Shown here: in pieces, positions 8,918-44,291 of the stretch | How positions within the stretch are numbered: the first letter of the stretch is position 1 | Layout: each line of letters opens with the position of its first letter | NCBI GenBank assembly: GCA_005777185.1 | Contig: SXNL01000328.1 | Coordinates: 1-64,000 of the forward strand | Direction of reading: 5' to 3' | Length of the DNA stretch: 64,000 nucleotides | Source: Myxococcales bacterium | GTDB taxonomy: Bacteria; Myxococcota_A; Polyangia; Polyangiales; Polyangiaceae | Made by a program: the position numbers and the translations under genes | Notes under the pieces: generated by a model | The model's database searches: none | The model's input: the letters and a program-made list of their open reading frames with translations, nothing else | Told to the model about the DNA's origin: nothing

Positions 8918-10015
8918 TCACCGCTTCAGGAACGCCTCGGTCATCACCTTCCGGGTGTCGTCCTCGCGGACGGCGCTCTTCAGCGGCTGCGCGGTCGGCG
9001 TGGGCGGGCAGGTCGTTCGATCCGCGGAGAGGGTCCTCTGGCCGACGACCGCGCCCGTGCGACGGTTGACGACCTTCACGTCGAGATCGACGTAGACCAG
9101 TACGGCGCCGCTCGGGCAAGGGAACCGACGCTCCGATGCTGTCCCCACACCGACGAGGTCCACGTCGGCGAACGTCTTCGCGCCACCGATGACGATCAGC
9201 GGACCGCTCGGTGCCCCGGTGACCACCATCGCTTCCGGCGGCTTCGCCGGCGCGGGCTCGGGCTCACCCGGGAAGCGAACCGGCCCGCTCGCCGCCTTCG
9301 CGAGCTCGCGCGCCGCGAGCTCGTTCATCCCGGGGCCGCGCAGGATCAACGGCTCGGTGAGGGTGGCACCGTCCGCCTCCAGCGTCGCGGGGAACGCCGC
9401 GTCCTCGTTGCGCGTGACCGGCGTCTGGCCCAGCTTGGCCACGAGATCCACGTCCACGGGGGTCTTCACGCCGGCCGCCAGCGCCACGGACTTGCCCTCG
9501 AGCGTGAGCTTCGCGCTGACGTCGCTCACCACGGAGAGCTGCATCTTCCCGGACTTCGCGAACGCGATGGAAGGCGCCGCGCACATGGCGCCCGGGCACA
9601 GGAACGACGCCTCGTGCGGTGCCCCGTCATCGCCCTTCACGTGGAGCACGTTCCTCGGCGACAGGTCGATCTTCGCGCTCGCCGTGGCCGTGCTCCGCGA
9701 TCCGAGGCTCGACCGCGTCGCACCCACCGTGAGGGTGTTGGCTCCGAGCTTCAGCCTGCTCTTCGGCACCAGGAAGGATCGGTTCGGCAGCGTCCCCGTG
9801 TTCTCCGTCCTGCCATCCACGGTGAGGTCGACACCCGGCGCCGACTTCACGAACACCTCGACCTTGTCCGCGTTGCCAGACCCGGCGGCCTCCCGCACCT
9901 CGACCGAGAGGGGCACGGTCCCTCCGTCGCAACCCGCACACAGCCAACCGCCCAGGAGGAGCGGGGACCGCACGAAGAGCCCCGCGAGATCGAACGGCCG
10001 CTTGCGCACGCGCAT
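8918..10015 (-). CDS. Lipoprotein of unknown function (365 aa)
   Basis: From the ATG at 10015 the protein starts MRVRKRPFDLAGLFVRSPLL and has a lipobox near LCAGC, so it is probably a lipoprotein. The body is beta-rich with repeated VDVDLV/LTLEGK-type strands, one CPGAMC Cys pair and a final domain (about 285-365) with VLVYVDLDVKVVNRRTGAVVG. No family was recognised. Upstream in-frame codons give a Ser/Arg-rich low-complexity stretch overlapping the divergent gene and were excluded. A TACCAT hexamer 11 nt upstream is a possible -10. Confidence 0.65.
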   Translation of the reverse strand: MRVRKRPFDLAGLFVRSPLLLGGWLCAGCDGGTVPLSVEVREAAGSGNADKVEVFVKSAPGVDLTVDGRTENTGTLPNRSFLVPKSRLKLGANTLTVGATRSSLGSRSTATASAKIDLSPRNVLHVKGDDGAPHEASFLCPGAMCAAPSIAFAKSGKMQLSVVSDVSAKLTLEGKSVALAAGVKTPVDVDLVAKLGQTPVTRNEDAAFPATLEADGATLTEPLILRGPGMNELAARELAKAASGPVRFPGEPEPAPAKPPEAMVVTGAPSGPLIVIGGAKTFADVDLVGVGTASERRFPCPSGAVLVYVDLDVKVVNRRTGAVVGQRTLSADRTTCPPTPTAQPLKSAVREDDTRKVMTEAFLKR

Positions 10016-10099
10016 GATGCGCTCCGATGGTACCCCGCGATCGGCCGCTGTCGAGGGGGAGGACGACGAGGGGGGGACGGATCCCCGGACGGCGGGTGC

Positions 10100-10105
10100 T
10101 ATGCT
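10100..10105 (+). promoter_or_regulatory. Candidate -10 (TATGCT) 7 nt before a GTG start
   Basis: TATGCT is followed by CGCGCCC and then GTG at 10113. The layout almost repeats the polyphosphate kinase start (TATACT, then CGCGCG, then ATG at 18020). This is why the GTG is preferred over the ATG embedded in the hexamer. Confidence 0.45.
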
Positions 10106-10112
10106 CGCGCCC

Positions 10113-10958
10113 GTGGAGGAAGCGACGCGACTGCCCGATCTGGAGGAGCCCGGGTACGACTTCGGCGGCGCCACGTTCGATCTGCAGGATCCCGACGACC
10201 GCGAGGTGGTGCGCTTCATCCTGTCCCAGGCGCTCTACGGCGAGGCGACGGGCGTGTACTGCGGGCGCTCGCTCTACGCGGCGAGGTCCCTGGAGGCCGC
10301 GAGATTCTACGTGCGGCAGGCGAAGCAGGAGCTCGCGCACCTCGAGCTCTTCGCCGACGTGTTCCGCAGCCTGGACATGAAGCCGGACCGCGCGCACTGG
10401 GTGATCCGCGCGCTCTCCGCCCACAACGACTACTACCCGCTCAAGGTGCTGATGGAACACGCCATCGGAGAGGGGATGGTGCTCGACATCTTCAAGGACC
10501 TCCTGCTCCAGACGCTGCCGGACGCCGACCCTCGCATCCCCGCGGTCAAGAAGAAGCTCCGCGTGGTGTGCCGCGAGGAGATGGAGCACGTCGCCTGGGG
10601 CGAGAAGGAGACGGTGCGCCTCCTCGCCGAGCGGCCCTGGCTGCGCGTACCGTTCTACGGGCTCCTGGAGATCCAGATGGCCGCGCTGCCCGCGCTCGTC
10701 CGGGCGTTCCGCTCGCGCGCCGCGGACCACCCCGTGCTGTCGCACGTGGAGGGCTTCCTGGCGCACGTCCGATCGCGCGTGTACGCCCAGGGCCGCCGCC
10801 TGGGCTTCGTGCCCGAGTCGAGGCCCGGGCTCCTCGCCCGCGCCTGGGCGATGCTCGTGGGCGTCCTCCTCCTCGCGCGCAGCCAGGTCGCGCGCAGCCG
10901 CTCCCAGCTCCCTGCGATCTACCTCGACGAGCTGGGATTCGGGCGAGACGGGAAGTAG
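10113..10958 (+). CDS. Ferritin-like diiron protein with C-terminal hydrophobic helix (281 aa)
   Basis: A four-helix ferritin-like domain carries a first-helix Glu (GEAT, E44), the first ExxH in KQELAHLELF (E73, H76), a third-helix Glu in MEHAIGEG, and a second ExxH in EEMEHVAWGE (E156 region, H159). This is the E/ExxH/E/ExxH ligand set of diiron carboxylate proteins. Near the C-terminus a hydrophobic segment (AWAMLVGVLLLA) may associate with the membrane. The reaction is unknown; oxidation, hydroxylation or iron handling are all possible. It appears monocistronic. Its stop lies 4 nt from the stop of the convergent M4 peptidase gene. If the ATG at 10101 were used it would be 4 residues longer. 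Confidence 0.7.
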   Translation: MEEATRLPDLEEPGYDFGGATFDLQDPDDREVVRFILSQALYGEATGVYCGRSLYAARSLEAARFYVRQAKQELAHLELFADVFRSLDMKPDRAHWVIRALSAHNDYYPLKVLMEHAIGEGMVLDIFKDLLLQTLPDADPRIPAVKKKLRVVCREEMEHVAWGEKETVRLLAERPWLRVPFYGLLEIQMAALPALVRAFRSRAADHPVLSHVEGFLAHVRSRVYAQGRRLGFVPESRPGLLARAWAMLVGVLLLARSQVARSRSQLPAIYLDELGFGRDGK

Positions 10959-37110: not shown

Positions 37111-37535
37111 CGCTCGGCCTTCTTCCGCTGGATCACCCGCGCCCTCATCTCGTCCCACGCGAGGCCACCCGCCGCGCGCGCCTCGAACCCGAAGTCCATG
37201 GGCGTCTTCGCGCCCTCCGCGTAGCGCGCACCTCGCGCGTCGACCCACGTCCCCTGTTCGGCGTCGCGCACCCACGCGGGGTGGGGCGGGGCGCGCCGCT
37301 CGTCCGCCCAGAGGACCATGCAGCCGATGTCGTCGAAGAAGCGACGCTCGCCGTCCATCGTCGCCTGCGCCGCGTACCGCTTGTCGGACACCAGCATGGC
37401 GCAGTGAGCGCACGGCTGCTTGCCCCACACCGGCTCCTCCGGGCGATCGCTCCGCGCGCACGCTGCGACATGTGCAGCATACACGTATTCGACGGCGAGC
37501 AAGGAGAGCCCCGTCACGAACGCCCGCCGCCTCAC
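37107..37535 (-). CDS. nosL: Copper-binding lipoprotein NosL (142 aa)
   Basis: The signal RRRAFVTGLSLLAVEYVYAA leads to a candidate lipid-anchor Cys (HVAAC). The domain carries the NosL metal motif PCAHCAMLVSDKRYAAQ (Cys, Cys, Met). NosL delivers Cu(I) to the NosDFY-assisted assembly of NosZ. The GTG start at 37535 overlaps the nosF stop (GTGA) and has GGAGG upstream at good spacing. Confidence 0.9.
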   Translation of the reverse strand: MRRRAFVTGLSLLAVEYVYAAHVAACARSDRPEEPVWGKQPCAHCAMLVSDKRYAAQATMDGERRFFDDIGCMVLWADERRAPPHPAWVRDAEQGTWVDARGARYAEGAKTPMDFGFEARAAGGLAWDEMRARVIQRKKAER

Positions 37536-38215
37536 GCCACCACCTCCAGCCGTCGCGCGATCGGCAGGTGAACGACCTCGTGGGCCGCCGCGTCGCCCTT
37601 CACCCTCCCGTCCGCCATCTCGACGACGCGTCCGACGAGAGGCCCCACCTCCTCGAGCCGGTGCGAGCACACGATCAGGATCGCGTCGTCCGGCCGCGAC
37701 GCGAGCTGTTCGAGGAACGCCGCCCTCGCTTCGCCGTCGAGGTTGGCGGTCGGCTCGTCGCACACGAGGACGGGCGCCTCCGTCGCGAGCGCCATCGCGG
37801 CGAGGAGCTTCTGCTTCATGCCCCCGGAGAGGTCGCGGAACCTCTTCCGCCGGCTGCCGTCGAGGTCGAGGCCGAGGGCGGCTGCGCGGCGCCACGTCTC
37901 CTCCTCGCCGAGGCCCCGCAGCCCGGCGTGGGCCCGCACCACCTCGGCGACCGGCGCCTCGAGCGGGGGCGCGATCTGCGGGATGTACGCGACGCTGCGG
38001 AGGGCGATCTCCGGCTCCCGCGCCACGTCCTTGGCCCCGATCGTGAGCGATCCGTCGAAGCGCACGAGCCCGAGGATGGCCCTGAGGAGCGTCGTCTTGC
38101 CCGACCCGTACGCCCCGACGAACGCGACCCGCTCCCCGCGCGCGATCGCGAGGGTCACGCGGTCGAGGGCCACGACGGTCCCGAACCGCACCGAGAGATC
38201 CTTCACCGAGATCAC
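37532..38215 (-). CDS. nosF: ABC transporter ATPase NosF (227 aa)
   Basis: This is a cytoplasmic ATPase with Walker A GAYGSGKTT (the usual GPNGAGKTT changed at three places but with Lys and Thr kept), Q-loop PQIAPPLE, signature LSGGMKQK, Walker B VLVCDEP and H-loop VCSH. It powers NosY/NosD in copper-sulfur cluster maturation of NosZ. The start is GTG, overlapping the nosD stop. At 227 aa it is shorter than typical NosF (about 300). Confidence 0.9.
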   Translation of the reverse strand: MISVKDLSVRFGTVVALDRVTLAIARGERVAFVGAYGSGKTTLLRAILGLVRFDGSLTIGAKDVAREPEIALRSVAYIPQIAPPLEAPVAEVVRAHAGLRGLGEEETWRRAAALGLDLDGSRRKRFRDLSGGMKQKLLAAMALATEAPVLVCDEPTANLDGEARAAFLEQLASRPDDAILIVCSHRLEEVGPLVGRVVEMADGRVKGDAAAHEVVHLPIARRLEVVA

Positions 38216-39564
38216 GGCGCCTCCACGACGGGCGGGCGGGTGAGCGGCGCCGGATCCACGAGGACCTTCTGCGACGCGAACACGGGCACCGCGCGCGACA
38301 CCGCGTCGACGAGGCCCATCGCGGCCGTCCCCGCGAAGAACTTCAGCGCGGGCCGCCTGTCGCCGAGTTCGGAGGAGAGCGCCTTCACCTCGTGGGGCAC
38401 GTCACCGATGGCATCGCCGTCGAGGTCGTACCCCTCGTACTCCGTGAAGTGGTTGCCCCGCGCGTCGACGCCCAGCGCGCCACCGCCTCCGTCGACCTCG
38501 ACCGTGCGGCCGTTGCTCCGGACGTCGTTCCCGAGCACGTGGAGACCCTTCTCGGAGCTGTGGAGCCGGAGCGCGACGTCGTTGAGCGCGATCACGTTGC
38601 CGCGAACGAAGACGGCGTCGTCGGGGTTGCGCGGCGTGTTGTCGAGGTAGGCGCCGGCCGTGTTCGCGACGATCCAGTTCCCCTCCACCGTCACCGCGTC
38701 GCTGTCCTTGAGGCCGAGCCCCATGCCCGCGGCGCCGCGCGCGCCGGAGAGGAGATTCCGGCGGAGGGCCACCCTCGCGCTGTACATGACGAACACCCCC
38801 ACCACGTTGCCCTCGAAGCGGTTCCGCTCGGCGGTCCCGTCGTGCGCGAACATGAAGTGCGCGCCGTACCGCCCGCCGCGGACCACGTTCCCCTCGAGCC
38901 GCGCGCGCCGCGTGTACCAGACGACGAGATCGCGCGAGCGATCGATCACCGACCGCGACACGCGCGAGCCGTGGGCCTCCCACAGCTTCACGCCGTCGCC
39001 CCGCATCTCCGCGTCGTCGGCCGGCCCGGTGATCCGCGCGCGCTCGACCTCGCACGCGCGGCACGCCGCGAGCGAGATCCCGAACAGCGTGTCCTCGACC
39101 GCGACGTCCGCGATGCGGACGCGGTCGCCCGAAGCCTTGATCCCCGCGTCCTCGGCGGTGTGCCGGTGCCCGGACCGCCGCAGCGTGACGTTCTCGACCG
39201 TGACGTCCGCCGCGTCGATGGTGAGCACCGTGGCGGTCCCGCTCCCCTCGAGGACCGCCCCGGCCATGCCCCGGATCGACACCGGCCGCTTCACCGTGAC
39301 GTCGCCCCGGTGGACGCCCGGGGCGAGATCGATCACGCGCGGCCCGGACGGATCCGCGATCATCGCGCGGAGCTCGTCGGACGACCGCGCCCACGCCGCG
39401 CCGGGCCGCGCCTCGACGTGGCGCGGGCCCGCGTCGTCGCTCGTCCCGCTCGCGACCGACGACACCGGCGCGACCTCGGCCGCGGCGGGGATGCCGCCGG
39501 GCGCGGTGCCGGGGAGCGCGAGCGCCGCCCCCAGCAGCCACGCGGACGAGCCGAGAGCACGCAC
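38212..39564 (-). CDS. nosD: NosD, periplasmic parallel beta-helix protein (450 aa)
   Basis: A signal peptide (WLLGAALALPGTAPGG) is followed by a right-handed beta-helix of repeated strands (VLTIDAADVTVENVTLRRSG and later VTVEGNWIVANTAGAYLDNTP). Family marks such as DGVKLWEAHGSRVSRS, GRYGAHFMFAHD and NLLSGARGAAGMGLGLKDSD match NosD. It works with NosFY in NosZ cluster assembly. The GTG at 39564 has GGGAGG five nt upstream and is preferred over the GTG at 39579 that overlaps the nosZ stop. Confidence 0.9.
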   Translation of the reverse strand: MRALGSSAWLLGAALALPGTAPGGIPAAAEVAPVSSVASGTSDDAGPRHVEARPGAAWARSSDELRAMIADPSGPRVIDLAPGVHRGDVTVKRPVSIRGMAGAVLEGSGTATVLTIDAADVTVENVTLRRSGHRHTAEDAGIKASGDRVRIADVAVEDTLFGISLAACRACEVERARITGPADDAEMRGDGVKLWEAHGSRVSRSVIDRSRDLVVWYTRRARLEGNVVRGGRYGAHFMFAHDGTAERNRFEGNVVGVFVMYSARVALRRNLLSGARGAAGMGLGLKDSDAVTVEGNWIVANTAGAYLDNTPRNPDDAVFVRGNVIALNDVALRLHSSEKGLHVLGNDVRSNGRTVEVDGGGGALGVDARGNHFTEYEGYDLDGDAIGDVPHEVKALSSELGDRRPALKFFAGTAAMGLVDAVSRAVPVFASQKVLVDPAPLTRPPVVEAP

Positions 39565-39575
39565 GGTGGCCTCCC

Positions 39576-41573
39576 TCACTTCCGCTTCGGCTTGACGAGG
39601 AAGTAGCCTTGCATCTCGAGGTGCAGCGCGGAGCAGAACTCCGTGCAGTACATCGGGAAGGTCCCCGGCATGTCCGCCTTGAAGCTCATGTTCTCGTGCT
39701 TGCCGGGCTCGAGGCTCACGTTGATGTTGTAGAGGTCGATCGTGAACCCGTGCGTCATGTCCTCGGACGTCTCGAGGCTCGTGACGTGGATGGTGACGTC
39801 GTCGCCCTCCTCGACCTCGATCTGGTCGGGCGTGAAGTGGCTCCGGATCGCCGTCATGTAGACGTCGACCTTGGTGCCGTTGCGCACGATCTTCTCCTTG
39901 CCGCCCTCGACGCGGGCGGGATCGAGCTCGCCGGTGAAGGGGTTGGTCCCGGGCTTGTAGACCTTGATCGGCTTGACCTTGTCGGCCTTGATCATCTGCG
40001 AGTAGTGCGGCTCCGCGTTCGGGAGCGGCATGTCCGCAATGAGCCGCATCTTCTCGCCGGTGAGATCGACCAGCTGGAAGTTCTGCGGGTAGAGCGGACC
40101 AACCGGGAGGAACCGATCCATCGACATCTTGTTCATCGCGACGAGGTACTTCCCGTCGGGGCTGACCGTGTCGCCCTCCGCGGCGAGGATGTGGCCGATG
40201 TTGTACTGGACCTTCAGCTTCTCGACGGGCTTCTTGAAGTCCTTGTAGCTCCACTTGGCCACGACGCTCTCGATGAAGACCGAGGTGAACGCGTTGCCCT
40301 TGTCGTCGTAGACCGTGTGGAGCGGGCCGAGCCCGATCTCCACCTGCCCCTGGAGGGTCTCCTTGAACGGCAGGATGCCGAGGCCGTAGGGGTCCTTCGA
40401 CTCGTACTTCTTCTCCGCGATGAGCTGCTTGATCTTGGCGAAGTCGTAGATCGTCGCGTGAGTGTCGAGCTTGCCACCCACGACGATGGCCTTCCCGTCG
40501 GGCGTCACGTCGCACCCGTGGGGGCTCTTCGGCTGTCCCACGAGCGCGAGCACCCCCTCGGGGCCGCTCACGTCCATCATGAGGACGCGCATCCCGGCGA
40601 TCGTCTTGGTCTTGCCGGCGTTGACGAGCTCCTCGGCCTTCTTCCAGTTGATGATGTGGAGGTAGTCCATGTCGTTCTGCGACGACCCGGACTCGATGGC
40701 GGGCTTGCCCTGGAGGGTGCCGCCGGTGGCCATCTCGCTGTTCCACGAGTTGACGAACGCCCAGCCGTCGCTGTCGAGCTTGCCGGCGTCGGCGAGGTCC
40801 TGCGTGTAGGGAGGCAGCTCGAGCGCCCAGCTCTTCGAGACGTCGATTCGCCCCTTCTGCCGGTCGAACTTCCAGAAGATGGCCGTGCCCCGGTACTTCT
40901 CCTTGTACTCGGACAGCGGCACGTAGTCGCGCCCGAGCGGCGCGGGGTACTGGCTCGTCTCGATGACGTAGTCGGTGTCCGGCGTGACGAACGCGCCGCC
41001 GTGGTCGCTCGCGGCGAGAGGGTTCGCGACGATCTGCTTCGTCATGAAGTCCGCGAGATCGATGACCGCGACCCGCGCGTTCGCCTTGTCGTTCACGAAC
41101 AGGTACTTGCCGTCGTAGTCACCCTTCGTCTCGGACAGGTTCGGGTGGTGCATGTCGGCCCAGCGGATCTTGTGGTTCCCCTGGTTGCCGCCCTCGAGCA
41201 CCTTGTCGCCGTCGCCGCCGAAGCCCCACCCCTGCCACGACTCCGGCGTGAAGACGCCGATGACCTTGAGCATCCGCATCGACGGGACGCCGATCACGTT
41301 CACGTTCCCGGACTGCCCGCCGGACGCAAAGATGTAGTACTCGTCGTGCTTCCCCGTCGGCATGTACGTCTTCAGCGCGGCCTCGACGTCCGCCTCGGAG
41401 AGGTTGCGCGCCTTCATGAGGTCCTGGAGCGACGCCGACGCGCCGAGGGTCCCCGACCCCTGCTTCTTGTCCTCGACCTTGCCGTTGGTGGGGCTGTTCT
41501 CACAGCCCGCGATCGCCGAGGCGATGACGAGGGCCGCGACCGCGGAGCCGACTACGAGGGTCCTTTTTCGCAT
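39576..41573 (-). CDS. nosZ: Nitrous-oxide reductase, clade II type (665 aa)
   Basis: This enzyme reduces N2O to N2. The N-terminus MRKRTLVVGSAVAALVIASAIAGC is a Sec signal with lipobox (not a Tat RR signal), typical of clade II enzymes, and implies a membrane-tethered NosZ. Seven CuZ His are in DMHHPN (two), SDHGG, SPHGCD, GPLHT, NIGHIL and EPHYSQ. The C-terminal cupredoxin domain has the CuA motif CTEFCSALHLEM. It is the first gene of nosZDFLY plus a cytochrome c. No nosR, nosB, nosG or nosH is present here. No clear FNR-type box was found upstream. Confidence 0.95.
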   Translation of the reverse strand: MRKRTLVVGSAVAALVIASAIAGCENSPTNGKVEDKKQGSGTLGASASLQDLMKARNLSEADVEAALKTYMPTGKHDEYYIFASGGQSGNVNVIGVPSMRMLKVIGVFTPESWQGWGFGGDGDKVLEGGNQGNHKIRWADMHHPNLSETKGDYDGKYLFVNDKANARVAVIDLADFMTKQIVANPLAASDHGGAFVTPDTDYVIETSQYPAPLGRDYVPLSEYKEKYRGTAIFWKFDRQKGRIDVSKSWALELPPYTQDLADAGKLDSDGWAFVNSWNSEMATGGTLQGKPAIESGSSQNDMDYLHIINWKKAEELVNAGKTKTIAGMRVLMMDVSGPEGVLALVGQPKSPHGCDVTPDGKAIVVGGKLDTHATIYDFAKIKQLIAEKKYESKDPYGLGILPFKETLQGQVEIGLGPLHTVYDDKGNAFTSVFIESVVAKWSYKDFKKPVEKLKVQYNIGHILAAEGDTVSPDGKYLVAMNKMSMDRFLPVGPLYPQNFQLVDLTGEKMRLIADMPLPNAEPHYSQMIKADKVKPIKVYKPGTNPFTGELDPARVEGGKEKIVRNGTKVDVYMTAIRSHFTPDQIEVEEGDDVTIHVTSLETSEDMTHGFTIDLYNINVSLEPGKHENMSFKADMPGTFPMYCTEFCSALHLEMQGYFLVKPKRK

Positions 41574-41726
41574 GCCCGGCGACGTGAGCAACCCCCGCGC
41601 CAGCCAGGATCCCCTGCATTCTCAAGTCATTTCGCGCACCGTACGCGCCGCATCCGGCAAGGCTTGCGACGGGTGCAACGGGTGCGCGGCTCGGCGCGCG
41701 GGGTTCTCAGCGCCTCGAACCCGTCA

Positions 41727-42119: not shown

Positions 42120-44291
42120 ATGCCGCGCAGGGAGGATCGAAAGCTCTCGACCTACTTCGAGAAGCGCACCGCCTCCACCAACGAGCCGTTCGGAGAGGCG
42201 GACGCGGGTCACGGGCCCACGCTCTCCGGCGCGTTCGTCGTGCACCAGCACGACGCGACGCGCATGCACTTCGACCTGAGGCTGGAGATCGGCGGCGTCC
42301 TCGCGAGCTTCGCGATCCCGCATGGCCTCGGCCTCGAGCCCCTCGAGAAGCACCTCGCCGTGCACACGGAGGACCACCCTCTCGAGTACCTCGACTTCGA
42401 GGAGGTCATCCCCGAGGGCAACTACGGGGCGGGCGCGATGATCGTGTGGGATCGCGGGCGGGTGAGCTACCTCGAGGGCCCCGCCGAGGAGGGGATGCAG
42501 CGCGGCAAGCTCGACCTCTACCTGCGCGGCTACAAGCTCGTCGGGCGATGGGCGCTCGTGCGCCTCGCGGGCGAGCCAAGGAACTGGCTGCTGATCAAGA
42601 AGAAGGACGGGATCCCTCGCGACAAGGAGCGGTTCGCGACCCTGACACGGTCGATCCTATCGGGGCTCACCGTGGCCGAGCGCGCGCGCGGGCCGGATCT
42701 CGCGCGCGCGTGGGAAGAGGACGCGGCCTCGCGTGGCGCACCGCTCCGCGAGGCCGGCGAGCGGTACACCCTCCCGATTCCACGTGAGGGGAAGCCCGCG
42801 AAGGGGGCCGTGTTCGACGTGGCGCTCGGGGGCGTGCGCGCGCTCCTGATCAAGGAGGGGGATCGGGTCGACGTGCTGCACGAGGGCGAGCGCGACGTGT
42901 CCGCGTTCTACACGGAGCTCGTGCGCGCCGCGCGCACGTGGCCCACCTCCCGCGTCGTGCTCGACGGCGAGATCGTCATCTTCGACGAGGCCGGCCAGCC
43001 AAGCCCCACGCTCCTCGGGCGGCGCGTCGAGCGCCTGCGCGCCGAGGACGCGCACGCGGTCCTGCTCGATCACCCCGTTCAGTACGCCGCCACCGATCTC
43101 CTCGCGCTCGGCGATCGCGACACGCGCCCGCTGCCCCTCCTGGCGCGGCGCGATCTCCTCGCGGGAATGCTCCCCGACGTGCCGGGCGTGTTCCGCGCGC
43201 CGCGGCCCCTCGTCGCGAAGGCGGCCGTCATGCGCGAGCTGGTCGTCGCCCACCACCTCGGCGGGGCCGTCGCCAAGCCCCCCGATGGGCCGTACGGCGA
43301 GGGCGCCGGCTGGACCTCCTTCACGGCGGGCGACGCGAGCCCGCGCCTCGTGATCGACCACGCCATGGAGGGGCCGGGGCCGGCCCTCCGCAAGGTGGCG
43401 GTGACGAACCGCGCGAAGGTCTTCTGGCCCGCGGACAGCCTCACCAAGGGCGACCTCGTCGCGTACTACGCCGAGATGGCGCCCGCGATCCTGCCCTACC
43501 TCGCGGACCGCCCCGTGATCCTCGTCCGCTACCCGGACGGGATCGACGGCAAGAGCTTCTTCCAGTGGCGCACGCCACCCGCCGCGCCATCGTGGCTGCG
43601 CACGGTCGTGTTCGTCGATCGGGAAGACCGGAAGGAGAAGCGTGGCTTCCTGATCGACGATGTCGCGGCGCTGACCTACGTCGCCAACCTCGCGTGCATC
43701 CCGATCCACATCCTCGGCTGCCGCGTCGGCGCCTGGGAGGTGGCCGACTTCTTCACCGTGGACTTCGACGTCAAGCAGTCCACCCTCGCGGCTGCCGTTT
43801 CCTTGGCACGGCGACTCATGGAATGGCTGGCCGCGATCGGCCTCCCGGGCCGCGTGAAGACCTCGGGCCAGTCCGGGCTGCACGTGCTCGCGCCGCTCGG
43901 GCCGGGGCAGTCGTTCACGACGGCGCGGGGGCTCGCGGACCTGCTCGGGCGGCTCCTCGTGCGCGCGTTCCCGGAGACGGCGACGATGGAGCGCCACGTG
44001 AAGAGCCGCGGCGAGCGGGTGTTCGTCGACACCGGCCAGACGGGGCCCTCGCGCGCGATCGTGGCGCCGTGGTCGGTGCGCGCAGCACCGCGGGCGACGG
44101 TGAGCACGCCGATCGCGCTCGAGGAGCTCGAGGACGCGCTCGATCCGGGCGCGTTCACCATCCGCACCGTGCCCGCGCGCTTCCGCGAGCGGGGGGATGC
44201 GATGGGGGATCTGCTGTCGGCACGCCCGGACGTGGGCGTGGCGATCGCGAGGCTCGATGCGCTGGTGAAGGAGGTGGGGGAGAGGCGGTAG
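42120..44291 (+). CDS. ligD: LigD-type repair protein: phosphoesterase and primase-polymerase domains around a degenerate ligase domain (723 aa)
   Basis: The order is 3'-phosphoesterase (about 36-165; VHQHDATRMHFDLRLE, HTEDHPLEY, IPEGNYGAGAMIVWDRG), ligase-like region (about 225-402), then primase-polymerase (about 425-700; catalytic D548 and D550 in TVDFD, SGQSGLH, D637 in VFVD). In the ligase part the adenylation motif ExKxDG is replaced by FDVALGGVR (A235 for Lys, G237 for Asp), motif IV has Gly for Glu (GGAVAKPPDGPY), motif V Lys residues are absent (WTSFTAG), and the OB fold is missing. Only motif III (LDGEIVIFDE) is kept. It probably processes DNA ends but cannot ligate. No ku gene is nearby. 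Confidence 0.88.
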   Translation: MPRREDRKLSTYFEKRTASTNEPFGEADAGHGPTLSGAFVVHQHDATRMHFDLRLEIGGVLASFAIPHGLGLEPLEKHLAVHTEDHPLEYLDFEEVIPEGNYGAGAMIVWDRGRVSYLEGPAEEGMQRGKLDLYLRGYKLVGRWALVRLAGEPRNWLLIKKKDGIPRDKERFATLTRSILSGLTVAERARGPDLARAWEEDAASRGAPLREAGERYTLPIPREGKPAKGAVFDVALGGVRALLIKEGDRVDVLHEGERDVSAFYTELVRAARTWPTSRVVLDGEIVIFDEAGQPSPTLLGRRVERLRAEDAHAVLLDHPVQYAATDLLALGDRDTRPLPLLARRDLLAGMLPDVPGVFRAPRPLVAKAAVMRELVVAHHLGGAVAKPPDGPYGEGAGWTSFTAGDASPRLVIDHAMEGPGPALRKVAVTNRAKVFWPADSLTKGDLVAYYAEMAPAILPYLADRPVILVRYPDGIDGKSFFQWRTPPAAPSWLRTVVFVDREDRKEKRGFLIDDVAALTYVANLACIPIHILGCRVGAWEVADFFTVDFDVKQSTLAAAVSLARRLMEWLAAIGLPGRVKTSGQSGLHVLAPLGPGQSFTTARGLADLLGRLLVRAFPETATMERHVKSRGERVFVDTGQTGPSRAIVAPWSVRAAPRATVSTPIALEELEDALDPGAFTIRTVPARFRERGDAMGDLLSARPDVGVAIARLDALVKEVGERR

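Follow-up and report, generated by a model that had tools for sequence, protein, structure and literature searches.

The window, i.e. the whole stretch of 64,000 nucleotides that was analyzed, encodes a LigD-type protein, LigD-alpha, which quite probably goes back to the duplication of a LigD whose domains then degenerated reciprocally in the two copies; alpha would be one of the two halves and the paralog beta the other, the pair being used together with Ku. This reciprocal division rests on the losses of domains and residues on both sides, on the co-occurrence of the two proteins with each other and with Ku, and on the clade formed by the beta sequences. The features of alpha are listed in Table 1.

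Table 1. Features of the LigD-alpha gene in the window
Feature	Residues	Position	Strand	Basis
LigD-alpha, PE - dead LIG - POL protein, 723 aa		42120..44291	+	ORF; Pfam and NCBIfam domains
3′-phosphoesterase (PE) domain	42-148	42243..42563	+	Pfam PF13298; structural match to 3n9b; residue table
Dead ligase (LIG) nucleotidyltransferase remnant, no OB after it	211-406	42750..43337	+	PF01068, 41.7 bits; fold match to 6nhz
Degenerate motif I, FDVALGGVR (canonical ExKxDGxR)	232-240	42813..42839	+	Alignment of 60 LigD-type proteins
Degenerate motif IV, GGAVAK (canonical EGVVAK)	381-386	43260..43277	+	Alignment of 60 LigD-type proteins
Degenerate motif V, WTSFT (canonical WxKxK), POL almost directly after	398-402	43311..43325	+	Alignment
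Primase-polymerase (POL) domain	424-700	43389..44219	+	PF21686, E 5e-71; structural match to 2irx; residue table

Pfam recognized LigD_N at residues 42-148 (E 5e-36) and LigD_Prim-Pol at residues 442-694 (E 5e-71), together with a weak match to DNA_ligase_A_M (residues 232-395, 41.7 bits); with the NCBIfam models, the protein passed the cut-off of the PE domain and scored 60 against a cut-off of 228 for the LIG domain of NHEJ ligases. The metal and phosphate residues H44, H50, D52, R54, H86 and Y90 of the PE domain, corresponding to H42, H48, D50, R52, H84 and Y88 of Pseudomonas aeruginosa LigD (PMC8656161), are all retained, and so are the catalytic D548 and D550 (hhhDhD motif), H588 (sxH) and D637 (hD) of POL, as a first-pass annotation made from the letters alone had proposed for the phosphoesterase residues and for the three aspartates. 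N430, K433 and K443 are retained as well; from the motif spacing, they would be the equivalents of N13, K16 and K26, which form the 5′-phosphate pocket of Mycobacterium tuberculosis POL. The predicted PE domain matches that of P. aeruginosa LigD (3n9b) with Z 23.2 and 1.5 Å, and the predicted POL domain that of M. tuberculosis LigD (2irx) with Z 36.1 and 1.4 Å.

Alignment with 59 related proteins revealed that in motif I the nucleophilic lysine is replaced by A235, the aspartate by G237 and the glutamate by D233, while the glutamate of motif IV is G381 and the lysine positions of motif V are occupied by S400 and T402. In the aligned active LigDs, K235, E381 and K400 are conserved in 38 of 38 sequences and K402 in 36 of 38. 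The equivalents of A235, G381, S400 and T402 in M. tuberculosis LigD are K481, E613, K635 and K637; K481 is the nucleophile, and the E613A or K637A enzyme has no nick-sealing activity (PMC8656161). Pfam gave no match to the OB, or C-terminal ligase, family (PF04679) in the window protein, and only about 27 residues lie between W398 and the start of POL, compared with an OB domain of well over 100 residues in the active relatives, which indicates that OB was deleted and not frameshifted. An OB domain hidden in another frame was also considered and rejected, because the frame is open and there is no room between W398 and POL. The loss of the lysine nucleophile, of the motif IV glutamate, of the motif V lysine pair and of the OB fold should leave alpha unable to ligate by the known mechanism; without the LIG and OB characters of LigD, it is better named a LigD paralog than a DNA ligase. 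The first-pass annotation had read the same replacements in motifs I, IV and V and the same absence of an OB fold, and each of these readings holds in the alignment and in the domain search, with no other lysine placed at the nucleophile position.

The dead domain is nonetheless predicted to be folded. The AlphaFold2 model of alpha, with a mean pLDDT of 90.8 overall, was built on 52 sequences rich in active LigDs, so that a bias towards the family fold is possible; in this model the LIG remnant adopts an OB-less nucleotidyltransferase fold, which matches the M. tuberculosis LigD ligase domain (6nhz) with Z 20.7 and 2.4 Å over 182 residues. The dead members mostly keep the structural positions G238, G283, G292, D326, R343, Y392 and W398, while they lose the ATP-contacting positions K235, R255, F325, E381, K400 and K402. 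In the closer ortholog pairs, pairwise Nei-Gojobori dN/dS is 0.12-0.41 for the LIG remnant and 0.07-0.29 for PE and POL; in active LigDs, too, LIG is mostly the faster-evolving domain. Thus, the remnant is under purifying constraint in these pairs, being less constrained than PE and POL, yet not neutral; for the window protein and its nearest relative (L062) the constraint is weaker or poorly measured, the value of 0.65 being a poor estimate at that divergence. The idea, also put forward initially, that selection removed ligation and retained end processing is supported by the pattern of lost and kept residues, with the refinement that the dead domain was not simply removed, being predicted as folded and constrained.

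Orthologs of alpha were searched in 144 genomes of the order and then in 108 genomes of the family, 17 of which contain it (Polyangiaceae/Labilithrix relatives of six genera); the sequences come from Labilithrix, Polyangiaceae and Myxococcales MAGs. They span PE, dead LIG and POL in open frames, with roughly 40-58% identity to the window protein. The losses are common to all 16 orthologs that bear the remnant: the motif I lysine is changed to A, D, E, Q, C, R or W, with no substitute lysine at motif I in any of the 16, the motif IV glutamate is missing in every case, and the motif V lysines are missing wherever that region is present. The PE and POL residues are retained wherever covered, two copies being cut by gaps or contig ends; the G122 copy runs off its contig, yet the same loss is visible. 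In G055 (L047/L073) the LIG region is wholly deleted, and since L073 nests inside the dead-LIG alpha clade, this deletion came after the inactivation. An assembly or sequencing error in a gene truly coding for an intact LigD might be suspected, as the window belongs to a fragmented MAG (6.44 Mb, 413 contigs, 82% complete); this explanation has practically no probability left, given that the same losses are found in open frames of separate assemblies from 16 genomes, and the varied substitutions in 16 of 16 remnant-bearing orthologs rule out a base-calling error.

The window genome also encodes ku (C52), a LigC-like ligase (C181), a stand-alone POL (C349) and, on contig C287, a 712-aa LIG-OB-POL protein without PE, which is the beta of this genome. 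The POL of this protein is apparently intact and active; POL thus appears active in both alpha and beta, and in the window genome the split is of PE versus LIG only. Beta, a myxobacterial LigD-type ligase with intact motif I and OB and devoid of PE, occurs in 16 of the 17 alpha genomes, the 17th (G163) being 88% complete. Its motif I reads ELKLDGV or ELKLDGA in G000, G055, G100, G122, G125, G127, G130, G139, G141, G156, G161, G162, G164 and G165, and ELKFDGA in G082 and G121. Beta is a ligase alone in G100, G055 and G122 and, adjoining ku, in G127, G139, G082, G121 and G156, while in seven genomes (G125, G130, G141, G161, G162, G164 and G165) the ligase is followed by a dead POL remnant; here the hhhDhD motif reads VALRV, VAVRV or close variants, the first Asp being changed to Arg and the second being gone, and the His of sxH and the third Asp are also lost. 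These seven genomes contain mirror images: an alpha with PE and POL and a dead LIG, and a beta with LIG and a dead POL, lacking PE. The dN/dS of the beta POL remnant is 0.42-0.56 in the closest pairs and about 1 in some distant pairs. The genes for alpha and beta were not found side by side. The reliance of alpha on a separate ligase, which the first-pass annotation had suggested, is supported by these findings, ku and other ATP-dependent ligases being present in the genome; the refinement is that the ligase would be a paralog from the same LigD with complementary losses. However, beta need not be the sole partner, because the genomes hold other ATP-dependent ligases, both LigC-like and, in G100 and G130, another complete LigD adjoining ku.

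Among the genomes of the family, 38 have a LigD of this clade in one piece (PE-LIG-POL) and neither alpha nor beta; the one-piece protein is missing from every alpha genome. In two of the 38, G118 and G124, it is broken by a frame shift or a contig end, although contiguous in content; in G118 (L092:7911-9944 and 9664-10554) motif I is intact and POL lies in the second, overlapping frame, as a result of a frameshift, an assembly error or gene fission. As the genomes are related, the alpha/beta pattern represents co-retention after few events and not many independent trials. The beta ligase domains (n=11, tree computed without row L094) form one clade with support 95/91; the alpha PE+POL sequences (n=14) lie on one side of a branch with support 43/84, hence they probably form one clade, although weakly supported, and more than one LIG loss is possible. 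In the trees, alpha and beta have the same neighbors, namely full-length LigDs from Polyangium and its relatives. Since seven genomes keep dead remnants in both proteins, duplication followed by complementary loss fits better than gene fission, and the duplication may have been a single one.

The same data bear on another reading, in which alpha would be a LigD duplicate of the ordinary kind, in partial decay, with a rotting ligase and an accessory end-processing remainder, devoid of any special partnership with beta. Drift at the motif I position is, indeed, free, with A, D, E, Q, C, R and W all represented, the remnant has been deleted in L073, a separate PE-POL protein (L048) is also without LIG, and some genomes contain further ligases. 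However, the remnant is folded in the model, is under purifying selection in the closer pairs and persists across six genera, and all alpha genomes lack the one-piece LigD while 16 of 17 have beta; simple decay is accordingly considered improbable.

Division between two paralogs remains the preferred reading, and the following sequence of events is proposed. One LigD would have been duplicated and the copies would have lost complementary domains. Alpha, with its retained active sites, would trim 3′ ends by PE and fill gaps by POL at Ku-bound breaks, with no ligation, and beta, through its nucleotidyltransferase and OB domains, would seal in trans the ends prepared by alpha. Recruitment by Ku has been described as involving PolDom (PMC5124664); direct recruitment is therefore expected for alpha, while beta would be brought in through its dead POL, in the genomes that have one, or in some other way. 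A special form of this explanation, not exclusive of it, is that the two proteins constitute an obligate two-subunit LigD, a stable heteromer put back together on Ku, with the dead nucleotidyltransferase on the alpha side and the dead primase-polymerase on the beta side serving for docking. At least seven genomes retain the two dead domains, the pattern of kept structural and lost ATP-contacting positions in the dead LIG agrees with such a role, and beta could still be positioned on Ku by its dead POL, given the PolDom-Ku recruitment (PMC5124664). On the other hand, the beta POL remnant evolves fast, and the pair persists without one or both dead domains in G055, G127, G139, G100, G122 and G156, so that a heteromer held together by these domains is not universal: several lineages deleted one dead domain and keep the pair. 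Thus, a structural or docking role of the remnants may exist in some lineages, but as a general explanation it is doubtful.

Neither ku nor a ligase was found among the neighbors of alpha in the window, which are NosZ, a 165-aa ORF and a type II secretion ATPase; in the Labilithrix relatives the conserved neighbors are a HAD hydrolase and a Ser/Thr kinase, which provide no functional lead. The nitrous oxide reductase gene NosZ (Pfam; 39576-41591), beside the LigD gene, belongs to a region on the minus strand (37532-41591) that also contains genes resembling NosD-type and ABC ATPase genes by sequence. That alpha is not adjacent to ku in the window is in line with a different proposal, namely a role of alpha in base-excision or ribonucleotide repair instead of NHEJ, like that of the mycobacterial LigC/Prim-PolC, a stand-alone ligase with a separate prim-pol, which is reported to act in base-excision repair (PMC5663958). 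The window genome has a LigC-like ligase (C181), and in several relatives such a ligase is found near a stand-alone POL. However, in the relatives this locus is different from that of alpha, so that the arrangement is not that of LigC/Prim-PolC; moreover, alpha carries a PE domain, which, like its 5′-phosphate pocket, is LigD-type, and its POL falls inside the myxobacterial LigD clade, apart from the stand-alone POL that the window genome encodes. As Ku is also found in 17 of 17 alpha genomes, a role outside NHEJ seems unlikely, even more so than simple decay of a duplicate.

With bacterial LigD, in which PE, LIG and POL are arranged as in P. aeruginosa, alpha shares the domain order, the PE and POL active sites and the fold, and its closest relatives are the full-length myxobacterial LigDs; unlike them, its LIG has lost the nucleophilic lysine, the motif IV glutamate, the motif V lysine pair and the OB fold. 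The closest split systems are those of non-conventional NHEJ: in Streptomyces, LigD, POL and Ku are encoded by stand-alone genes (PMC5124664), structures are available for the PE and POL of Methanocella (5dmp, 5dmu), and split cases were classified as non-conventional NHEJ, by the presence of domains, in a survey covering about 6,000 genomes (PMC7719229). As in these systems, ligase and end-processing activities are on different polypeptides of one genome that also encodes Ku; indeed, in G000 and its relatives LIG, POL and PE are distributed over different proteins in the presence of Ku, PE and POL on alpha and LIG on beta. In contrast to them, the two paralogs here still bear, as dead domains, reciprocal traces of the division. 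In the open-licence PMC literature searched, no paper was found that describes a LigD with a catalytically dead LIG, or reciprocal degeneration or subfunctionalization of LigD.

If this interpretation is true, the pair would offer a clear natural case of domain-level subfunctionalization within a single repair enzyme, the intermediate stages of which are alive today: the one-piece LigD, the pair with both dead domains and the pair from which a dead domain has been deleted. It would also imply that PE/POL and LIG need not share one chain for bacterial NHEJ, and it would make the reason for keeping dead catalytic domains directly testable. A further consequence concerns surveys of NHEJ based on domain presence, which would count the alpha/beta genomes as having conventional LigD, because the dead LIG passes the Pfam threshold and alpha would be scored as a complete PE-LIG-POL protein.

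Several other LigD-type proteins were observed. In G131, a PE-POL fusion of 580 aa without LIG (L048:8491-10230) is divergently oriented beside ku (L048:7547-8788, minus strand); in the PE+POL tree its origin is separate from that of alpha. A second, distant family of dead nucleotidyltransferase-POL proteins, which lack PE, is represented by L050:3470-4996 in G127 and L049:337-2181 in G102; motif I reads FDVAWDGHR or AELAWEGQR, with Lys changed to Ala, OB is missing and POL is intact. In G102 this protein coexists with a full-length LigD, and C437 of G182 looks similar to the two. A LigD-type POL alone occurs in G149 (L208:5803-6849), where neither Ku nor a ligase of this LigD clade was found. 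Finally, G126 and G136, which are large one-contig genomes of the same family, encode full-length PE-LIG-POL LigDs of another type (L210 and L211), with the motif I EPKLDGY and a Ku-like ORF nearby.
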